From contig JALVVN010000007.1 in the NCBI GenBank assembly GCA_027023405.1, positions 82,307 through 146,306 of the forward strand: a stretch of 64,000 nt of DNA, read 5' to 3'. This DNA comes from Campylobacterales bacterium. GTDB taxonomy: Bacteria; Campylobacterota; Campylobacteria; Campylobacterales; QNZT01. This document shows positions 3,577-42,815 of this stretch, piece by piece; the first letter of the stretch is position 1; each line of letters begins with the position of its first letter. The notes below the pieces were generated by a model, which was not told the origin of the DNA, did not search any database, and saw only the letters and a list, made by a program, of their open reading frames with translations. Made by a program: the position numbers and the translations under genes.

Positions 3577-4215
3577 CTATCCTAATAATATATTTGTACC
3601 CACTACCAGTGAGATAAGCCCCGCAACGGCAAAAGTTCGCCTGACATTTTGAATATTGTCCAAGAGGTGCTCGTTGATGTAGAGTATCACAAAACCAAAT
3701 GTCAAAAAGATCAACATCACACCCGCCGTAAACGCACCGACCATACTCAGATCGACATGCCCGCCATGCACCGCACCCAGCGTCACCAACATCCCGCGCA
3801 CTCCGCCGATCCCCATCAAAAGCCCCATCGTAAAGGATGAAGCGCTATCGACATTATCATGCGTATGCGCCTTGCCAAACCAGATATGCACATGCTCCAC
3901 ACCCTCATGCAAGTGCTTTGAGAGGTGAATACGATCGGCAAAAACCATATAGAGCAGATAGACTCCCATCCCGATGATCACCGAAGCACTGATGAGATCC
4001 CCATACGCCAAAATCTCAGGAGAGATCTCCACGCGCTCCAAAATCTTCGCAAAGACAAAGAGACTCAACCCATGCCCGATCGCAAAAAGCATCGTAATCA
4101 ACAAAGTCTTTCGCTTCTCCTTACCGATCGAAAAGTCAGCGATCGCCGTCAAATGATCCGGACCAAACGCATGCAAAATACCATACCAAAAAATCACCGT
4201 AAGTGAAAGTTCCAT
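3577..4215 (-). CDS. Nickel/cobalt permease-like membrane protein (first gene of the hyp operon)
   Basis: The protein has about six hydrophobic helices and the HAFGPDH sequence in the first helix, which fits the Hx4DH nickel-binding signature of NiCoT/UreH-type permeases. A second His-rich loop (HEGVEHVHIWFGKAHTHDN, near residue 115) is typical of nickel and cobalt exporters or importers of this superfamily. Its place directly before hypB argues for nickel uptake for the hydrogenases. The start is set at the ATG at 4215 (MELSLTVIFW) because GGAGAGGAG lies at the right distance. The track start at 4239 lies inside the operator palindrome and would add eight residues with no ribosome site. Direction of transport is inferred from context. 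Confidence 0.78.
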   Translation of the reverse strand: MELSLTVIFWYGILHAFGPDHLTAIADFSIGKEKRKTLLITMLFAIGHGLSLFVFAKILERVEISPEILAYGDLISASVIIGMGVYLLYMVFADRIHLSKHLHEGVEHVHIWFGKAHTHDNVDSASSFTMGLLMGIGGVRGMLVTLGAVHGGHVDLSMVGAFTAGVMLIFLTFGFVILYINEHLLDNIQNVRRTFAVAGLISLVVGTNILLG

Positions 4216-37273: not shown

Positions 37274-37369
37274 ATGCAAAAGAGAAAAACAGAATCGCTC
37301 TTGGGATTATTACTACTCTTTCTCAGTGTCGGATTAGTCAGTTTTCAAGCACTCTTTCATCTTCTCTAA
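37274..37369 (+). CDS. 31-residue membrane peptide leading the XpaC-TelA operon
   Basis: Too short for the track. The frame reads MQKRKTESLLGLLLLFLSVG and ends FQALFHLL, one hydrophobic helix after a basic N-terminus. It has a strong ribosome site (AAGGGAGAAGAG), a promoter, and the next gene starts 9 bases after its stop with GGGAG. It could be a small membrane partner of the envelope system or a leader peptide. Confidence 0.6.
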   Translation: MQKRKTESLLGLLLLFLSVGLVSFQALFHLL

Positions 37370-37378
37370 AGGGAGCCT

Positions 37379-38218
37379 ATGTCAAAAGTCAAACGCTACA
37401 ATCCTGATAAACAGACAATCACACCGCTTACCGGATTGCTTCTCTATCTACTACCTACACCGTTGCTCTTTGCGATTATCTTCTCATTTTTTAGTGCAAA
37501 CGGTGTTGGCGTGATCAAGTATGCCGTCGCCTACGCCCTCTTTCTCTTTGCCGCATCAATCGCTAAAAAGGGATTTGCATTTGAACGGCGCTATCGCAAC
37601 AGTGCTTTAGCGAAAGCGCCTCGTTTCCCTTACAAAACGGCGGGCGCGATTTTTTTGGCAGGGGCTACCTTTTACACTTCACTCTTTTGTACGAGCAACT
37701 CACTCTTGATGAGTCTGGTCGCGGGTGCTAGTGCCCTCATCGGTTTCTACCTCTTTTACGGTTTTGATCCACGAAAAGATAAGGTGGGAAATCTACGAGT
37801 GGGTGTACGAGCCGAAGATGTGATCGCCATCACCGATGATGCCAAAAAGCGAATCAAAGCACTACAAGAGTTCAAAAAGGATGTCCCCTCCAAAGCGACA
37901 CGAAACCATTTGGATGAGATTATCCAATCGACCGAAGAGATCATCCACAATATCGAAACCGATCCCAACGATCTCGACAAAGCGCGAAAGTTTTTCAAGA
38001 TCTATCTCGATCGAACCTATAAGATAAGTGATGAATTTGTCACCCATATCAAGAAAAAGAATCTTACTGAGGAGATTCAAAAAAATTACGACAATCTGCT
38101 CATCGCACTCAAAAAGACCATCGTTGAGCAGAAAGAGAAGCTTGAGAGTGAAGATCTCACCGCACTCGATATCCAGATAGAGGCATTGACAAAACAACTA
38201 AATCAAGAAGGAGTATGA
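37379..38218 (+). CDS. XpaC-like membrane protein
   Basis: The 279-residue protein has four hydrophobic helices in the first 130 residues (for example LTGLLLYLLPTPLLFAIIFSF) followed by a helical cytoplasmic domain with repeated acidic and basic stretches (DDAKKRIKALQEFKKDV). This is the layout of the XpaC (5-bromo-4-chloroindolyl phosphate hydrolysis) family, which is nearly always next to telA. The name comes from an old screening phenotype; the protein is more likely a membrane partner of TelA in stress resistance. Confidence 0.78.
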   Translation: MSKVKRYNPDKQTITPLTGLLLYLLPTPLLFAIIFSFFSANGVGVIKYAVAYALFLFAASIAKKGFAFERRYRNSALAKAPRFPYKTAGAIFLAGATFYTSLFCTSNSLLMSLVAGASALIGFYLFYGFDPRKDKVGNLRVGVRAEDVIAITDDAKKRIKALQEFKKDVPSKATRNHLDEIIQSTEEIIHNIETDPNDLDKARKFFKIYLDRTYKISDEFVTHIKKKNLTEEIQKNYDNLLIALKKTIVEQKEKLESEDLTALDIQIEALTKQLNQEGV

Positions 38219-38220
38219 CT

Positions 38221-39381
38221 ATGGATAAACAGTATCAAACAAACCAAGAAAGCATCGCCAAAGAGGCAAGCAAACTCAAAGAGGAGACCAAAGCGGTCTT
38301 TGAAAAAGTGAGTGATGACCTCACCAAAGATCTCATCGTCTATGATGATGCACCCAGTGATGAAAAAGCAAAAATCGAAGAATTGACAAAAGAGATCAAA
38401 GATGATGATCCGCGAACCGTCCTCTTCTTTGGCTCCAAAGCCCAAGAGAAGATTAATACCGTCTCAGACAGTATGCTTGAGGGGGTAAAGAATAAGGATA
38501 TTGGAACAAGCGGGGAAGCGCTTAATCGTCTTGTCACTGTTATCAAAGGATTTGATGTCGATGAACTCAATCCCAATGCAAAACAGGGATTTTTCGCCAA
38601 ACTATTCGGTTTTGCTTCACCGGCTGTAAAATTTTTGGGTAAATATGAGGAGGTTAAAAGTCAAATCGATCGCATTACCGACGAATTAGAGTCTCACAAA
38701 ACCCAACTTCTCACCGACATCACGGCACTCGATCGTCTCTATGATGTTAATTTGGAGTACTTTAATGATCTCGAACTCTATATCGCCGCAGGTGTCAAAA
38801 AACTTAAAGAGTTTGATGAAGAGATCATCCCCAAACTCAAAGCACAAGCCCAAGAGAGCGATAAAATGACTAAAACACTTAACCTTCAAGATGTCATCAC
38901 CACTCGTAACGATCTAGAGCGTCGTATCCACGATTTGCGCCTTACTCGACAAGTGGCAATGCAAGCGCTTCCAAGCATCCGAATGGTGCAGGAAAATGAC
39001 AAAAACCTCGTCGCCAAAATCGACTCTACACTTGTCAATACTGTACCGCTTTGGAAAAACCAACTCGCCCAGACGATCACTATCTATCGTAGCGGTGAAG
39101 CGGCGAAATCGGTCAAAAATGCTACCGATCTTACCAATGAACTACTCGAGGAGAATGCCAAAAACCTCAAAGCCGCCAACAAAGCGATCCGAGAAGAGGT
39201 GGAGCGCGGTGTCTATGATATTGAAACCATTAAAAAAGCCAACAATACGCTCATCGAAGCAATCAATGAGAGTTTAGAGATTACCCAAAAAGGGAAGATC
39301 GCCAGAGAGAAGGCACAAAAAGAGCTTGAACTCCTTGAAAGTCAACTCAAACAGAGCCTTGTCAAAGCGGCTTCAAACTAA
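38221..39381 (+). CDS. telA: TelA-family toxic anion resistance protein
   Basis: The protein of about 386 residues is almost entirely alpha-helical. Family features include LNPNAKQGFFAKLFGFASPAVKFLGKYEEVKSQID, the central ALDRLYDVNLEYFNDLELYIAAG and the C-terminal KAANKAIREEVERGVYDIETIKKANNTLIEAINESL. TelA proteins were named for tellurite resistance and belong to Ter-type stress systems. The ATG at 38221 is chosen because AAGGAG lies 7 bases upstream; the ATG at 38215 overlaps the xpaC stop. Confidence 0.88.
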   Translation: MDKQYQTNQESIAKEASKLKEETKAVFEKVSDDLTKDLIVYDDAPSDEKAKIEELTKEIKDDDPRTVLFFGSKAQEKINTVSDSMLEGVKNKDIGTSGEALNRLVTVIKGFDVDELNPNAKQGFFAKLFGFASPAVKFLGKYEEVKSQIDRITDELESHKTQLLTDITALDRLYDVNLEYFNDLELYIAAGVKKLKEFDEEIIPKLKAQAQESDKMTKTLNLQDVITTRNDLERRIHDLRLTRQVAMQALPSIRMVQENDKNLVAKIDSTLVNTVPLWKNQLAQTITIYRSGEAAKSVKNATDLTNELLEENAKNLKAANKAIREEVERGVYDIETIKKANNTLIEAINESLEITQKGKIAREKAQKELELLESQLKQSLVKAASN

Positions 39382-39399
39382 GCATATAGAGGAGAAACG

Positions 39400-40482
39400 A
39401 TGGGATTTTGGGATAAGATATTTGGAGAGTTTATCGATGTTATCGACTGGATCGATGAGAGCAACGACACGATGGTCTATCGCTTTGAGCGATACAACAA
39501 TGAGATCAAATACGGCGCCAAACTCACCGTTCGGGAATCTCAAGCCGCCGTCTTTGTCAATGAGGGAGAGATTGCCGATGTGTTGGGACCGGGTATCTAT
39601 GAACTAGAGACCAAAAACCTTCCGATCCTCACGACACTGCAACACTGGGATCACGGCTTTAACTCCCCTTTCAAAGCGGAGATCTACTTTGTCAATCTTC
39701 GCAAATTTACCGATCTTAAATGGGGTACGAAAAACCCGATTATCATCCGCGATAAAGAGTTTGGTGTCGTAAGACTTCGTGCGTTTGGTACCTATGAGAT
39801 GCGTATCAGCGACCCGGCACTCTTTCTCAAAGATATTGTCGGCACCAACGGCAACTTCAATGTCGAAGATATCAGCAATCAACTACGAAATATCATCGTC
39901 TCTCGCTTCTCCAATATCGTTGCCGATTCAGGTATTCCTGTCCTGGATCTCGCTAGTCGCTACGATCAACTCAGCGAATATATCACCCAAAAACTTGCAA
40001 AAGAGTTTGAAAACTACGGTATCGAACTCACCAAATTCCTCATCGAAAATATCTCCGTACCACCTGCGGTCGAAGAGGCGATTGATAAGCGAAGTAGTAT
40101 GGGCGTTGTAGCTGATTTGGGCAAATATCTCGAATTTCAAACCGCTGAGTCGATGACTCAAGGAGGCGAAGGCAATATGGCGAGTATGGGTGCCGGTATG
40201 GGAATCGGTATGGCGATGGCGGATAAGATGAGTGAGCGCTTTCAAAAGAGTAAAGATCACGGTTATATCCCCGATCCGTTTGAGAAAATGTACTACTATG
40301 CTAACGGTAAAGAGCCTATCGGACCGCTTAATATTGATGAAGTGGGTGATCTCATTAAAGAGAGAAAGATCACTTCTGACACACTGATGTGGTCAAGCGG
40401 TATGGAAAATTGGCAGAAAGCCAGTCGCTTTGATGAGTTGGAGTCGCTCTTTAACCTGCTCACACCACCGCCTCTCTCTTAA
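39400..40482 (+). CDS. SPFH-domain protein with C-terminal GYF_2 domain (YdjI-like)
   Basis: The 360-residue protein begins MGFWDKIFGEFIDVIDWIDES and has an SPFH/band-7 domain (about 25-245) of the virion-core/YdjI branch: VRESQAAVFVNEGEIADVLGPGIY, PIIIRDKEFGVVRLRAFGTYEM. A Gly/Met-rich linker is followed by a GYF_2 domain (WYYANGKEPIGP-type; here YYYANGKEPIGPLNIDEV and MWSSGMENWQKA). YdjI of Bacillus acts with a zinc-ribbon membrane protein and PspA in membrane stress. Here the zinc-ribbon gene follows 5 bases later. Confidence 0.87.
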   Translation: MGFWDKIFGEFIDVIDWIDESNDTMVYRFERYNNEIKYGAKLTVRESQAAVFVNEGEIADVLGPGIYELETKNLPILTTLQHWDHGFNSPFKAEIYFVNLRKFTDLKWGTKNPIIIRDKEFGVVRLRAFGTYEMRISDPALFLKDIVGTNGNFNVEDISNQLRNIIVSRFSNIVADSGIPVLDLASRYDQLSEYITQKLAKEFENYGIELTKFLIENISVPPAVEEAIDKRSSMGVVADLGKYLEFQTAESMTQGGEGNMASMGAGMGIGMAMADKMSERFQKSKDHGYIPDPFEKMYYYANGKEPIGPLNIDEVGDLIKERKITSDTLMWSSGMENWQKASRFDELESLFNLLTPPPLS

Positions 40483-40487
40483 AAGCG

Positions 40488-41678
40488 ATGGAGCAAAAAC
40501 CTAAAATCAAAGAGCAGTCGCTCTTTACCCAAAGGCGCTTCCCCTGTAAAGCGTGCGGTGCAAACCTCATCTTTTGCGCCGATGTCGATGCACTCAAATG
40601 CTCCTACTGCGGTGCAATCAACCAGATTAAACCCCCGCCGCTTCCCATTCGGGAGCTCGATCTCAAAAATGCCCTACAACAGATTGACTCCAAACCGTGG
40701 CATATTGAAGAGAAGCGCAATTTCAAGTGTCCCTCCTGTGCAGCAAGCTTCAAAGTTGACGACTACATTCGAAGTACCCGTTGCCCCTACTGCAACACAC
40801 CGATCGTCACCAATGCCGATATCTTTATGCCTCTCGCACCAAAATCGCTTCTGCCGTTTGATATCAACCAAAAGGAGGCAAAAGAGATCTTCAAAAAGTG
40901 GGTCGGTTCTCTCTGGCTTGCTCCCTCCAGCCTCAAACGCATCTACGATACCGACTCTACACTCAAGGGAATCTACCTTCCCTACTGGACCTATGATAGT
41001 AAAACGCATACCCAATATATGGGAAGACGGGGTATTGTCTATTATGATCGTGTCACACGACGCGTCTATATCGACGGAAGAGAGGAGTTGGTCGAGGATG
41101 TTGTGGAGCGGATCGAGTGGACACCGGTGAGCGGTGAAGTTTATGATGACTTTGACGATGTGCTCATCGGTGCCACTAAAACCATTCCTCGAAAACTCGC
41201 CGACGCACTGGAGCCGTGGGATTTGGAGCATTTGGTTCCCTTTGATCCGCGCTATCTAAGCGGTTTTGAGAGTGAAACCTATCAAGTCGCACTGGATGAG
41301 GGGTTTGACTATGCCAAAGAGGTGATGCGCTACCAAATCCAAAACCATGTGCGCCACGATATCGGCGGAGATCGTCAAGTCATAGAGGATATGCGTGTCT
41401 ATCATCGCGATAGCACCTTCAAATATATTCTACTACCTATTTGGACGGCACACTTTGAGCATAGCGGGAAATCCTATCGATTTGCCATCAACGCAAGAAA
41501 CGGCAAGATCGTCGGTGAACGCCCCTATTCCAAACTCAAAATCTTTTTTCTTGTGCTTGCCGTTCTTGCCATTGTCGGAGCATTTTTCTATTTCGGCTCT
41601 CAAGATCAGGTTGGCACTTCCACTATGCCACATATCCAAGTCCAACCTCACGGCACAATTATTCATCTAAGGTTCTAA
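40488..41678 (+). CDS. Zinc-ribbon membrane protein (YdjG-like)
   Basis: The 396-residue protein has two zinc ribbons at the N-terminus (CKACGANL to CSYCG, about 21-41, and CPSCAASF to CPYCN, about 79-100), a long middle region with YLPYWTYDSKTHTQYMG and LPIWTAHFEHSGKSYRFAIN, and one C-terminal membrane helix (IFFLVLAVLAIVGAFFYFG). This matches zinc-ribbon proteins found next to YdjI-type SPFH proteins, thought to act as membrane scaffolds. Cysteine pairs are complete. Confidence 0.78.
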   Translation: MEQKPKIKEQSLFTQRRFPCKACGANLIFCADVDALKCSYCGAINQIKPPPLPIRELDLKNALQQIDSKPWHIEEKRNFKCPSCAASFKVDDYIRSTRCPYCNTPIVTNADIFMPLAPKSLLPFDINQKEAKEIFKKWVGSLWLAPSSLKRIYDTDSTLKGIYLPYWTYDSKTHTQYMGRRGIVYYDRVTRRVYIDGREELVEDVVERIEWTPVSGEVYDDFDDVLIGATKTIPRKLADALEPWDLEHLVPFDPRYLSGFESETYQVALDEGFDYAKEVMRYQIQNHVRHDIGGDRQVIEDMRVYHRDSTFKYILLPIWTAHFEHSGKSYRFAINARNGKIVGERPYSKLKIFFLVLAVLAIVGAFFYFGSQDQVGTSTMPHIQVQPHGTIIHLRF

Positions 41679-42815
41679 ATGACAATACACCGGCACTATC
41701 TCTTCTCCCAACCCCATCAGCCTTTCTTCTCCCTCTCAGTCATCAATGCCCTCATCTTTATGGTGCTTTTTGCACTCAGTTACAACGGTACGATCTCCAC
41801 AGCGATCTCGCCTATCGATCTGCACACTTACAGCTTTGTCTATCTGATTTTTACCCCTGCTTTTTTGGGCTTTTTACTCACCACCTATCCCCGTTTTTCC
41901 CAAATGCCCGCTATCTTACAAAAAGATTACCTCATTATCTTTTATCCACTGCTTTTTGCATCGATCCTTTACATCCTAAGCGCTCTTTTTCTCCCCGCTC
42001 TCACACTTCTTACCAAGATAGCGATACTCTTTGCCCAGCTCTACACCGCTAAACTCTTCTTAAACCTTTTTCGCAACTCTCCCTTACCCGATCAGCATGA
42101 CACCTTTTGGATTCTTGTTGCGTGGATCAGCAGTATCGTCACCAATCTCATCGCCCTTATCGCGCCAATTTACTTCCCCAAGTTTGCCCTTTATCTATAC
42201 CTTATCTTCATGGGACTCAGCGTTGCGCAGAGAATGGTGCCCTTTTTTAGCCACAGGATGGTAGAACGCGATCAAACACTACTTAGAGATATCTATCTCC
42301 TCTTTCTCATCGGGGTCATTTTGAATAGTTTTGACTTTGGAAAATGGATAGCACCAATCACTTTCTTGTTAGCAGGCGTTCGATTGGTGCACCGTTTTAT
42401 GGCATGGAAACTCCCTTTTCCAAAAGAGGAGCCGCTTATTTGGATCTTACAAATCGCACTCTACTGGCTCGCACTTGGATTGATCCTCGGAAGTATCGCG
42501 CAGTTTGCCTCACTTTTGCTCGGTAGCTCTCTCCTTGCACTACCGATCCATCTGCTTGCACTTGGATTTTTAACGACGATCTTGATTGGATTTGGCACCC
42601 GTGTCACTCTCGGACACTCCGGCAATTTAATGCAGATCGATAAAAGCACCAAAATTCTCTTCTATCTCACACAGATCTTACTCTACTTTCGCATCCTCTA
42701 TTCGCTCATGCCAAACCTCATGCTCTTTAATATCAGCACCTTTGTGTGGTTGCTCCTCTTTGGATGGTGGGGTCTGAAATATTTGCCGGTGCTCCTCTTT
42801 GGCAAAAGGCTCTAA
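41679..42815 (+). CDS. nnrS: NnrS family membrane protein
   Basis: The 378-residue protein has about 12 membrane helices and NnrS-typical segments: HPFFSL-like start (HYLFSQPHQPFFSLSV), GFLLTTYPRFSQ, GLSVAQRMVPFFSHRM and LLALGFLTTILIGFGTRVTLGHSG. NnrS is a haem- and copper-containing protein involved in protection from nitric oxide and nitrosative stress. It starts directly after the stop of the zinc-ribbon gene. The last 138 bases overlap, in antisense, the coding end of the TupA-like gene. Confidence 0.88.
   Translation: MTIHRHYLFSQPHQPFFSLSVINALIFMVLFALSYNGTISTAISPIDLHTYSFVYLIFTPAFLGFLLTTYPRFSQMPAILQKDYLIIFYPLLFASILYILSALFLPALTLLTKIAILFAQLYTAKLFLNLFRNSPLPDQHDTFWILVAWISSIVTNLIALIAPIYFPKFALYLYLIFMGLSVAQRMVPFFSHRMVERDQTLLRDIYLLFLIGVILNSFDFGKWIAPITFLLAGVRLVHRFMAWKLPFPKEEPLIWILQIALYWLALGLILGSIAQFASLLLGSSLLALPIHLLALGFLTTILIGFGTRVTLGHSGNLMQIDKSTKILFYLTQILLYFRILYSLMPNLMLFNISTFVWLLLFGWWGLKYLPVLLFGKRL

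Follow-up and report, generated by a model that had tools for sequence, protein, structure and literature searches.

What is the very short reading frame that stands in front of xpaC in this Campylobacterales operon, and to which of its neighbours does it belong? XpaC and TelA are widespread and misleadingly named proteins, and a constant, uncurated third component offers a concrete handle on them by pointing to the part of XpaC that has a partner. The frame opens a series of six genes arranged head to tail on the + strand (37274-42815) of the window, the 64,000-nucleotide stretch of contig analysed here. They encode the small membrane protein (hereafter the microprotein), XpaC, TelA, an SPFH-GYF protein, a double-zinc-ribbon (ZnR) membrane protein and NnrS, and all six frames listed in the initial annotation were recovered in place.

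The microprotein gene (37274..37369) has an ATG start preceded by AAGGGAGAAGAG, a good Shine-Dalgarno sequence, and encodes 31 residues, MQKRKTESLLGLLLLFLSVGLVSFQALFHLL, with a single transmembrane segment at residues 9-27. Its stop codon is separated by 9 nucleotides from the start of xpaC (37379..38218), which encodes a long-form protein scoring 78.1 bits against PF10112 (E=1.2e-21), above the gathering score of 29.8. The start of telA (38215..39381) overlaps the end of xpaC by 4 nucleotides and its soluble product of 388 residues scores 361.5 bits against PF05816 (E=5e-108; gathering score 30). The next gene (39400..40482) encodes a protein with no transmembrane segment, in which an SPFH domain (Band_7_1, PF13421, 344.6 bits, E=2.5e-103) is followed by a C-terminal GYF_2 domain (PF14237, E=1.1e-14) and not by a zinc ribbon. 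The ZnR protein (40488..41678) has a YdjG-like architecture, with CxxC pairs seen by eye near residues 20-42 and 81-102 and one C-terminal transmembrane helix (352-370); its Pfam match is weak and below threshold. The ATG of nnrS (41679..42815) directly abuts the ZnR stop codon, as had been noted initially, and its product scores 172.1 bits against PF05940 (E=3e-50; gathering score 28). No TPM domain of the YdjH type was found with Pfam among the six proteins. A divergent class-III aminotransferase gene lies 5' of the operon and a convergent TupA-like ATP-grasp gene, on the - strand, lies 3' of it; the 3' ends of the latter and of nnrS overlap by 138 bp (42678-42815), which is unusually long for convergent genes. 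A scan for promoters and terminators gave signals no better than those in shuffled sequence.

TelA orthologues with more than 50% identity are present in 17 of 397 Campylobacterota genomes, the window genome included; the nearest relatives of that genome with a name are Sulfurospirillum and further Campylobacterales MAGs. A small ORF with one predicted helix precedes xpaC in all 16 Campylobacterota loci with readable upstream DNA (the window and its congener among them), ending anywhere from 11 nucleotides inside xpaC to 14 nucleotides before its start. The 16 peptides are of two types, one of about 31 residues (KKFLGFFFLLFSAGFVSWYPLIYLLK) and one of 22-24 (KLFGFLFIVYAIGWSIVVSF), and when they are aligned Gly11 is invariant while a second glycine nine residues on, Gly20, is found in most. 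A profile HMM trained on these 16 peptides alone was run against 10,246 six-frame small ORFs from loci L054-L137, a set gathered by a separate TelA scan and from plasmid records. Every match ranked 1-49 stands immediately upstream of xpaC, and not until rank 50 (E=0.38) does one fall elsewhere. Of the 49, two or three are from training genomes or are near-identical to them, leaving at least 46 that are new. For Gammaproteobacteria an even sample was taken among 369 genomes belonging to the same class as Cocleimonas, a few of which are also in the L054-L133 records. Here the profile was clear in 24 of 25 confirmed XpaC loci, with true matches at 14.8 bits or more against 8.8 for the best stray, and at the 25th a peptide abutting the xpaC ATG, MNPVLRSLGWLLLAAVIFIPSCIAIFN, was found by eye. 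When whole genomes were searched every match below E=1e-3 adjoined xpaC, and genomes lacking xpaC gave no match below E=0.02.

Long-form XpaC was accompanied by the microprotein in 16/16, 70/70, 12/12 and 2/2 cases in four partly overlapping locus sets, the threshold used for the wider tally having a random (false-positive) rate of 1.8%. The microprotein is found directly before xpaC in more than 100 bacterial loci, counted over sets that overlap in part. Across Campylobacterota, Gammaproteobacteria and Desulfobacterota it precedes almost all full-length XpaC whose upstream DNA can be read. In Alphaproteobacteria one long-form XpaC, that of Pseudorhodobacter turbinis, has no microprotein; its place is taken by another kind of small ORF, some 69 residues long and with two hydrophobic segments (L137, approximately 3676-3880). 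Two other alphaproteobacterial matches are weak. The microprotein is under purifying selection, with a pN/pS of 0.23 over close pairs, and each of the 18 independent pairs has a value below 1. The evidence that the 31-residue ORF is a real gene is strong, and the suggestion in the initial annotation that the tiny membrane peptide before xpaC would be conserved in relatives is borne out far beyond chance, by the profile ranks, the whole-genome search and pN/pS alike.

Members of the family are mostly about 22-45 residues long, although taking the first start codon makes some Chromatiaceae forms longer. The window microprotein fits the definition that we propose: a single transmembrane helix, the pattern G-x8-G and a position directly upstream of long-form xpaC. 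A search of Pfam and NCBIfam with 28 diverse members returned no family, the few weak matches being isolated and each confined to an individual member, the solved structures in the PDB gave no match, and no paper dealing with the microprotein together with TelA was found. One member, of 47 residues on a Thiodictyon plasmid, is annotated, as a 'hypothetical protein'. Since many members have just 22-32 codons most are probably unannotated.

It is xpaC that the microprotein accompanies, and not telA, SPFH or nnrS: it is kept with xpaC where telA or the SPFH and ZnR genes lie elsewhere or are missing. In Halochromatium, Thiohalocapsa and Lamprocystis telA is apart from xpaC and the microprotein is beside xpaC, while the Thiodictyon plasmid has xpaC with no adjoining telA and retains the microprotein. 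Thiocapsa roseopersicina has two xpaC genes with one microprotein each. Several Campylobacterota and many gammaproteobacterial loci have no downstream SPFH or ZnR gene and still keep it. The evolutionary distances of the microprotein correlate with those of the transmembrane part of XpaC (r 0.73), its cytosolic part (0.69) and TelA (0.57), correlations that partly reflect shared ancestry; the correlation with TelA falls to a partial value of 0.21 given the XpaC transmembrane part. At two gammaproteobacterial loci (L172 and L173) a short microprotein of the Campylobacterota type stands with Campylobacterota-like XpaC and TelA, a pattern that suggests, from sequence likeness, horizontal transfer of the unit, as would be expected if the genes moved together.

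Three natural exceptions, on which the argument for the transmembrane domain wholly depends, point to the part of XpaC concerned. Two short-form XpaC proteins of Desulfobacterota have two transmembrane helices, starting directly with the pair and having no extra N-terminal helices, and neither is accompanied by a microprotein. In Methylotuvimicrobium buryatense 5G a fusion of NfeD1b, the NfeD membrane domain and the XpaC cytosolic domain (L147:1468-3231) also has none, whereas the full-length XpaC of the same genome has one. A link between the microprotein and the XpaC membrane domain would explain this split between long and short forms. SPFH proteins are known to have NfeD as a membrane partner (PMC2636767), and the fusion in addition links the XpaC cytosolic domain, independently, to a known class of SPFH partners. 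The two short-form xpaC genes (L212 and L213) are themselves preceded by a gene with a vWA-like product carrying a TDGKSN motif, which suggests a different XpaC context. Other Campylobacterota have distant homologues of TelA (L051-L053) with no match to XpaC next to them, and these were not considered further.

The stop codon of the microprotein and the start codon of xpaC overlap or abut in most loci, with spacings of -4 and -1 nucleotides the commonest. This is what would be seen if the ORF acted only in cis, its translation delivering ribosomes to the xpaC start as a coupling or attenuation leader and the peptide itself being without function. Coupling, however, needs no particular amino acids, yet the low pN/pS stands beside an invariant Gly11, a nearly invariant Gly20 and a constant topology across phyla. 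The microprotein also has no stall motif or codon run, and short-form xpaC, which must be translated as well, does without it. We therefore consider a purely cis-acting role unlikely. The initial annotation had called the peptide a 'leader'; as a conserved gene in front of xpaC it stands, but the regulatory sense of the word does not, the amino-acid sequence being what is conserved.

A second possibility is that the microprotein is a tiny lipoprotein, with its hydrophobic stretch serving as signal peptide and the following cysteine lipidated. A lipobox-like motif (e.g. LVSC-Q or LATC-Q) does occur in 17 of 75 members, many of them with longer hydrophilic tails. In most members, that of the window included, the position is on the other hand taken by Trp, Leu, Ile, Val or Phe, most end almost at the helix, and conserved glycines within the helix are not a feature of signal peptides. 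With only 17 of 75 members fitting, a universal lipoprotein reading was rejected, and for the family it seems quite improbable, though it could hold for some Chromatiaceae, Methylococcaceae and Competibacteraceae. The N-terminal side of the helix is more positive in 37 of 47 microproteins and never less so, from which an N-in orientation is predicted.

Turning to the genes downstream, SPFH directly follows telA in 40 of 63 testable loci by the automated count, to which L054, L055, L057 and L071 (TelA fragment end) are added to give at least 44 of 63. As the initial annotation had proposed, XpaC, TelA, SPFH and ZnR make up one conserved operon, in at least this number of testable TelA loci. It had named loss of the peptide or of the gene order in related genomes as the finding that would tell against it, and the opposite is seen for the series from the peptide through xpaC, telA and SPFH to ZnR, the nnrS end being where conservation fails. 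The gene nnrS closes the operon in the window genome, its congener and one close Sulfurospirillum MAG. An integrated complex for nitrosative stress and membrane protection that includes NnrS, as put forward initially, would fit the abutting nnrS and ZnR genes of the window and the close placing of the two in these relatives. The adjacency is, however, confined to three loci of one lineage, with only one of the 63 loci that could be tested in the wider set showing it, and a sister genus of the same family carries nnrS elsewhere, with no TelA match or operon. Such a complex is very unlikely, and as a general rule the integration through NnrS was rejected; nnrS is best treated as a lineage-specific neighbour, a local passenger whose link to the operon is incidental. 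Two plasmids show other arrangements. In Vibrio coralliilyticus (L134) SPFH-GYF and its downstream partner occur without XpaC or TelA, near genes for a TIR-domain protein and a TRAFs-binding protein, and in Paracoccus ferrooxidans (L135) a DUF2927 gene stands between telA and SPFH-ZnR in the operon and may encode a further component in Alphaproteobacteria.

PADLOC returned no match for XpaC, TelA, SPFH or ZnR, and a reading of the operon as a defence system was dropped. The shortness, hydrophobicity and constant neighbour of the microprotein might bring to mind a small toxin-like or pore-forming peptide against which XpaC gives immunity. This is extremely unlikely given the PADLOC result, the slow evolution of the microprotein, its invariable position upstream of a stress gene and the lack of any antisense or antitoxin gene.

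We consider it probable that the microprotein is a single-pass inner-membrane subunit of long-form XpaC, within a PspA-independent scaffold beneath the membrane and with nnrS as a passenger. The AlphaFold2 model of XpaC has approximately four N-terminal transmembrane helices and a cytosolic helical bundle (mean pLDDT 88), and that of TelA is made of very long helices (pLDDT 70.6). The microprotein helix, with its two conserved glycines, would pack against the extra N-terminal helices of XpaC, and translational coupling would ensure that it is produced in step with XpaC. The scaffold would consist of the cytosolic bundle of XpaC and of TelA, which is soluble, joined at loci that have them by the SPFH-GYF ring protein and the zinc-ribbon anchor, and it may stabilise the inner membrane under envelope stress. 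It would do without PspA the job of the sigma-W operons xpaC-yaaN and pspA-ydjGHI of Bacillus subtilis. PspA (PF04012), the mark of a phage-shock (PSP) system, is absent from 18 of 18 Campylobacterota genomes with the operon, hence our proposal of a PspA-independent version. In Foldseek searches the XpaC model had no confident match to a solved structure and the TelA model none below E=0.01, with no PspA among its top matches; sequence searches of solved structures gave nothing informative for XpaC, TelA or ZnR. As Foldseek lends no support and the pLDDT of the TelA model is about 70, we do not claim TelA as a PspA- or ESCRT-III-like protein. More tentatively, and with considerable doubt, the microprotein could be the subunit that senses stress or acts as a gate in an envelope-repair machine that is widespread, independent of PspA and built with XpaC-TelA, SPFH-GYF and ZnR, the 'toxic anion resistance' of TelA then being a side effect of membrane protection.

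Small single-pass subunits of membrane complexes are well known in bacteria, among them CydX, KdpF and AcrZ. The microprotein resembles them in size, in its single helix and in its constant neighbour gene, and differs in matching no sequence family or PDB entry and in that its partner is a proposed one. The XpaC, TelA, SPFH and ZnR families are already known; what is new is the microprotein and how strictly it goes with long-form XpaC. It is a small gene whose removal is easily tested, and it gives the XpaC/TelA stress genes a constant small partner.

Among the closest known systems is xpaC-yaaN(telA) of B. subtilis and Listeria (lmo1966-lmo1967), where XpaC is followed by TelA as in the window. 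This unit is linked to envelope stress and induced by antimicrobial peptides, and TelA mutants are more sensitive to nisin and tellurite (PMC3498285, PMC12791056). Descriptions of it list two genes and include no microprotein, SPFH or ZnR, all three of which are present in the window operon. SPFH-NfeD operons likewise pair an SPFH scaffold with a multi-pass partner, but in the window that partner is XpaC, with no protease or NfeD domain. In pspA-ydjGHI an SPFH protein and a double-zinc-ribbon single-pass protein, to which ZnR is likened by architecture, form a membrane-stress complex (PMC8581546, PMC11237479), and in B. subtilis the SPFH protein YdjI and the membrane proteins YdjG and YdjH recruit PspA (PMC8581546). 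The window operon lacks PspA and the TPM protein YdjH and has XpaC and TelA in their place, its SPFH protein ends in GYF and not in a zinc ribbon, and the microprotein is added. The initial annotation was right to assign the XpaC/TelA and YdjI/YdjG pairs to different systems, as xpaC-yaaN and pspA-ydjGHI are separate operons in B. subtilis, both within the sigma-W regulon (PMC3498285). The window operon unites these two modules in one transcription unit.
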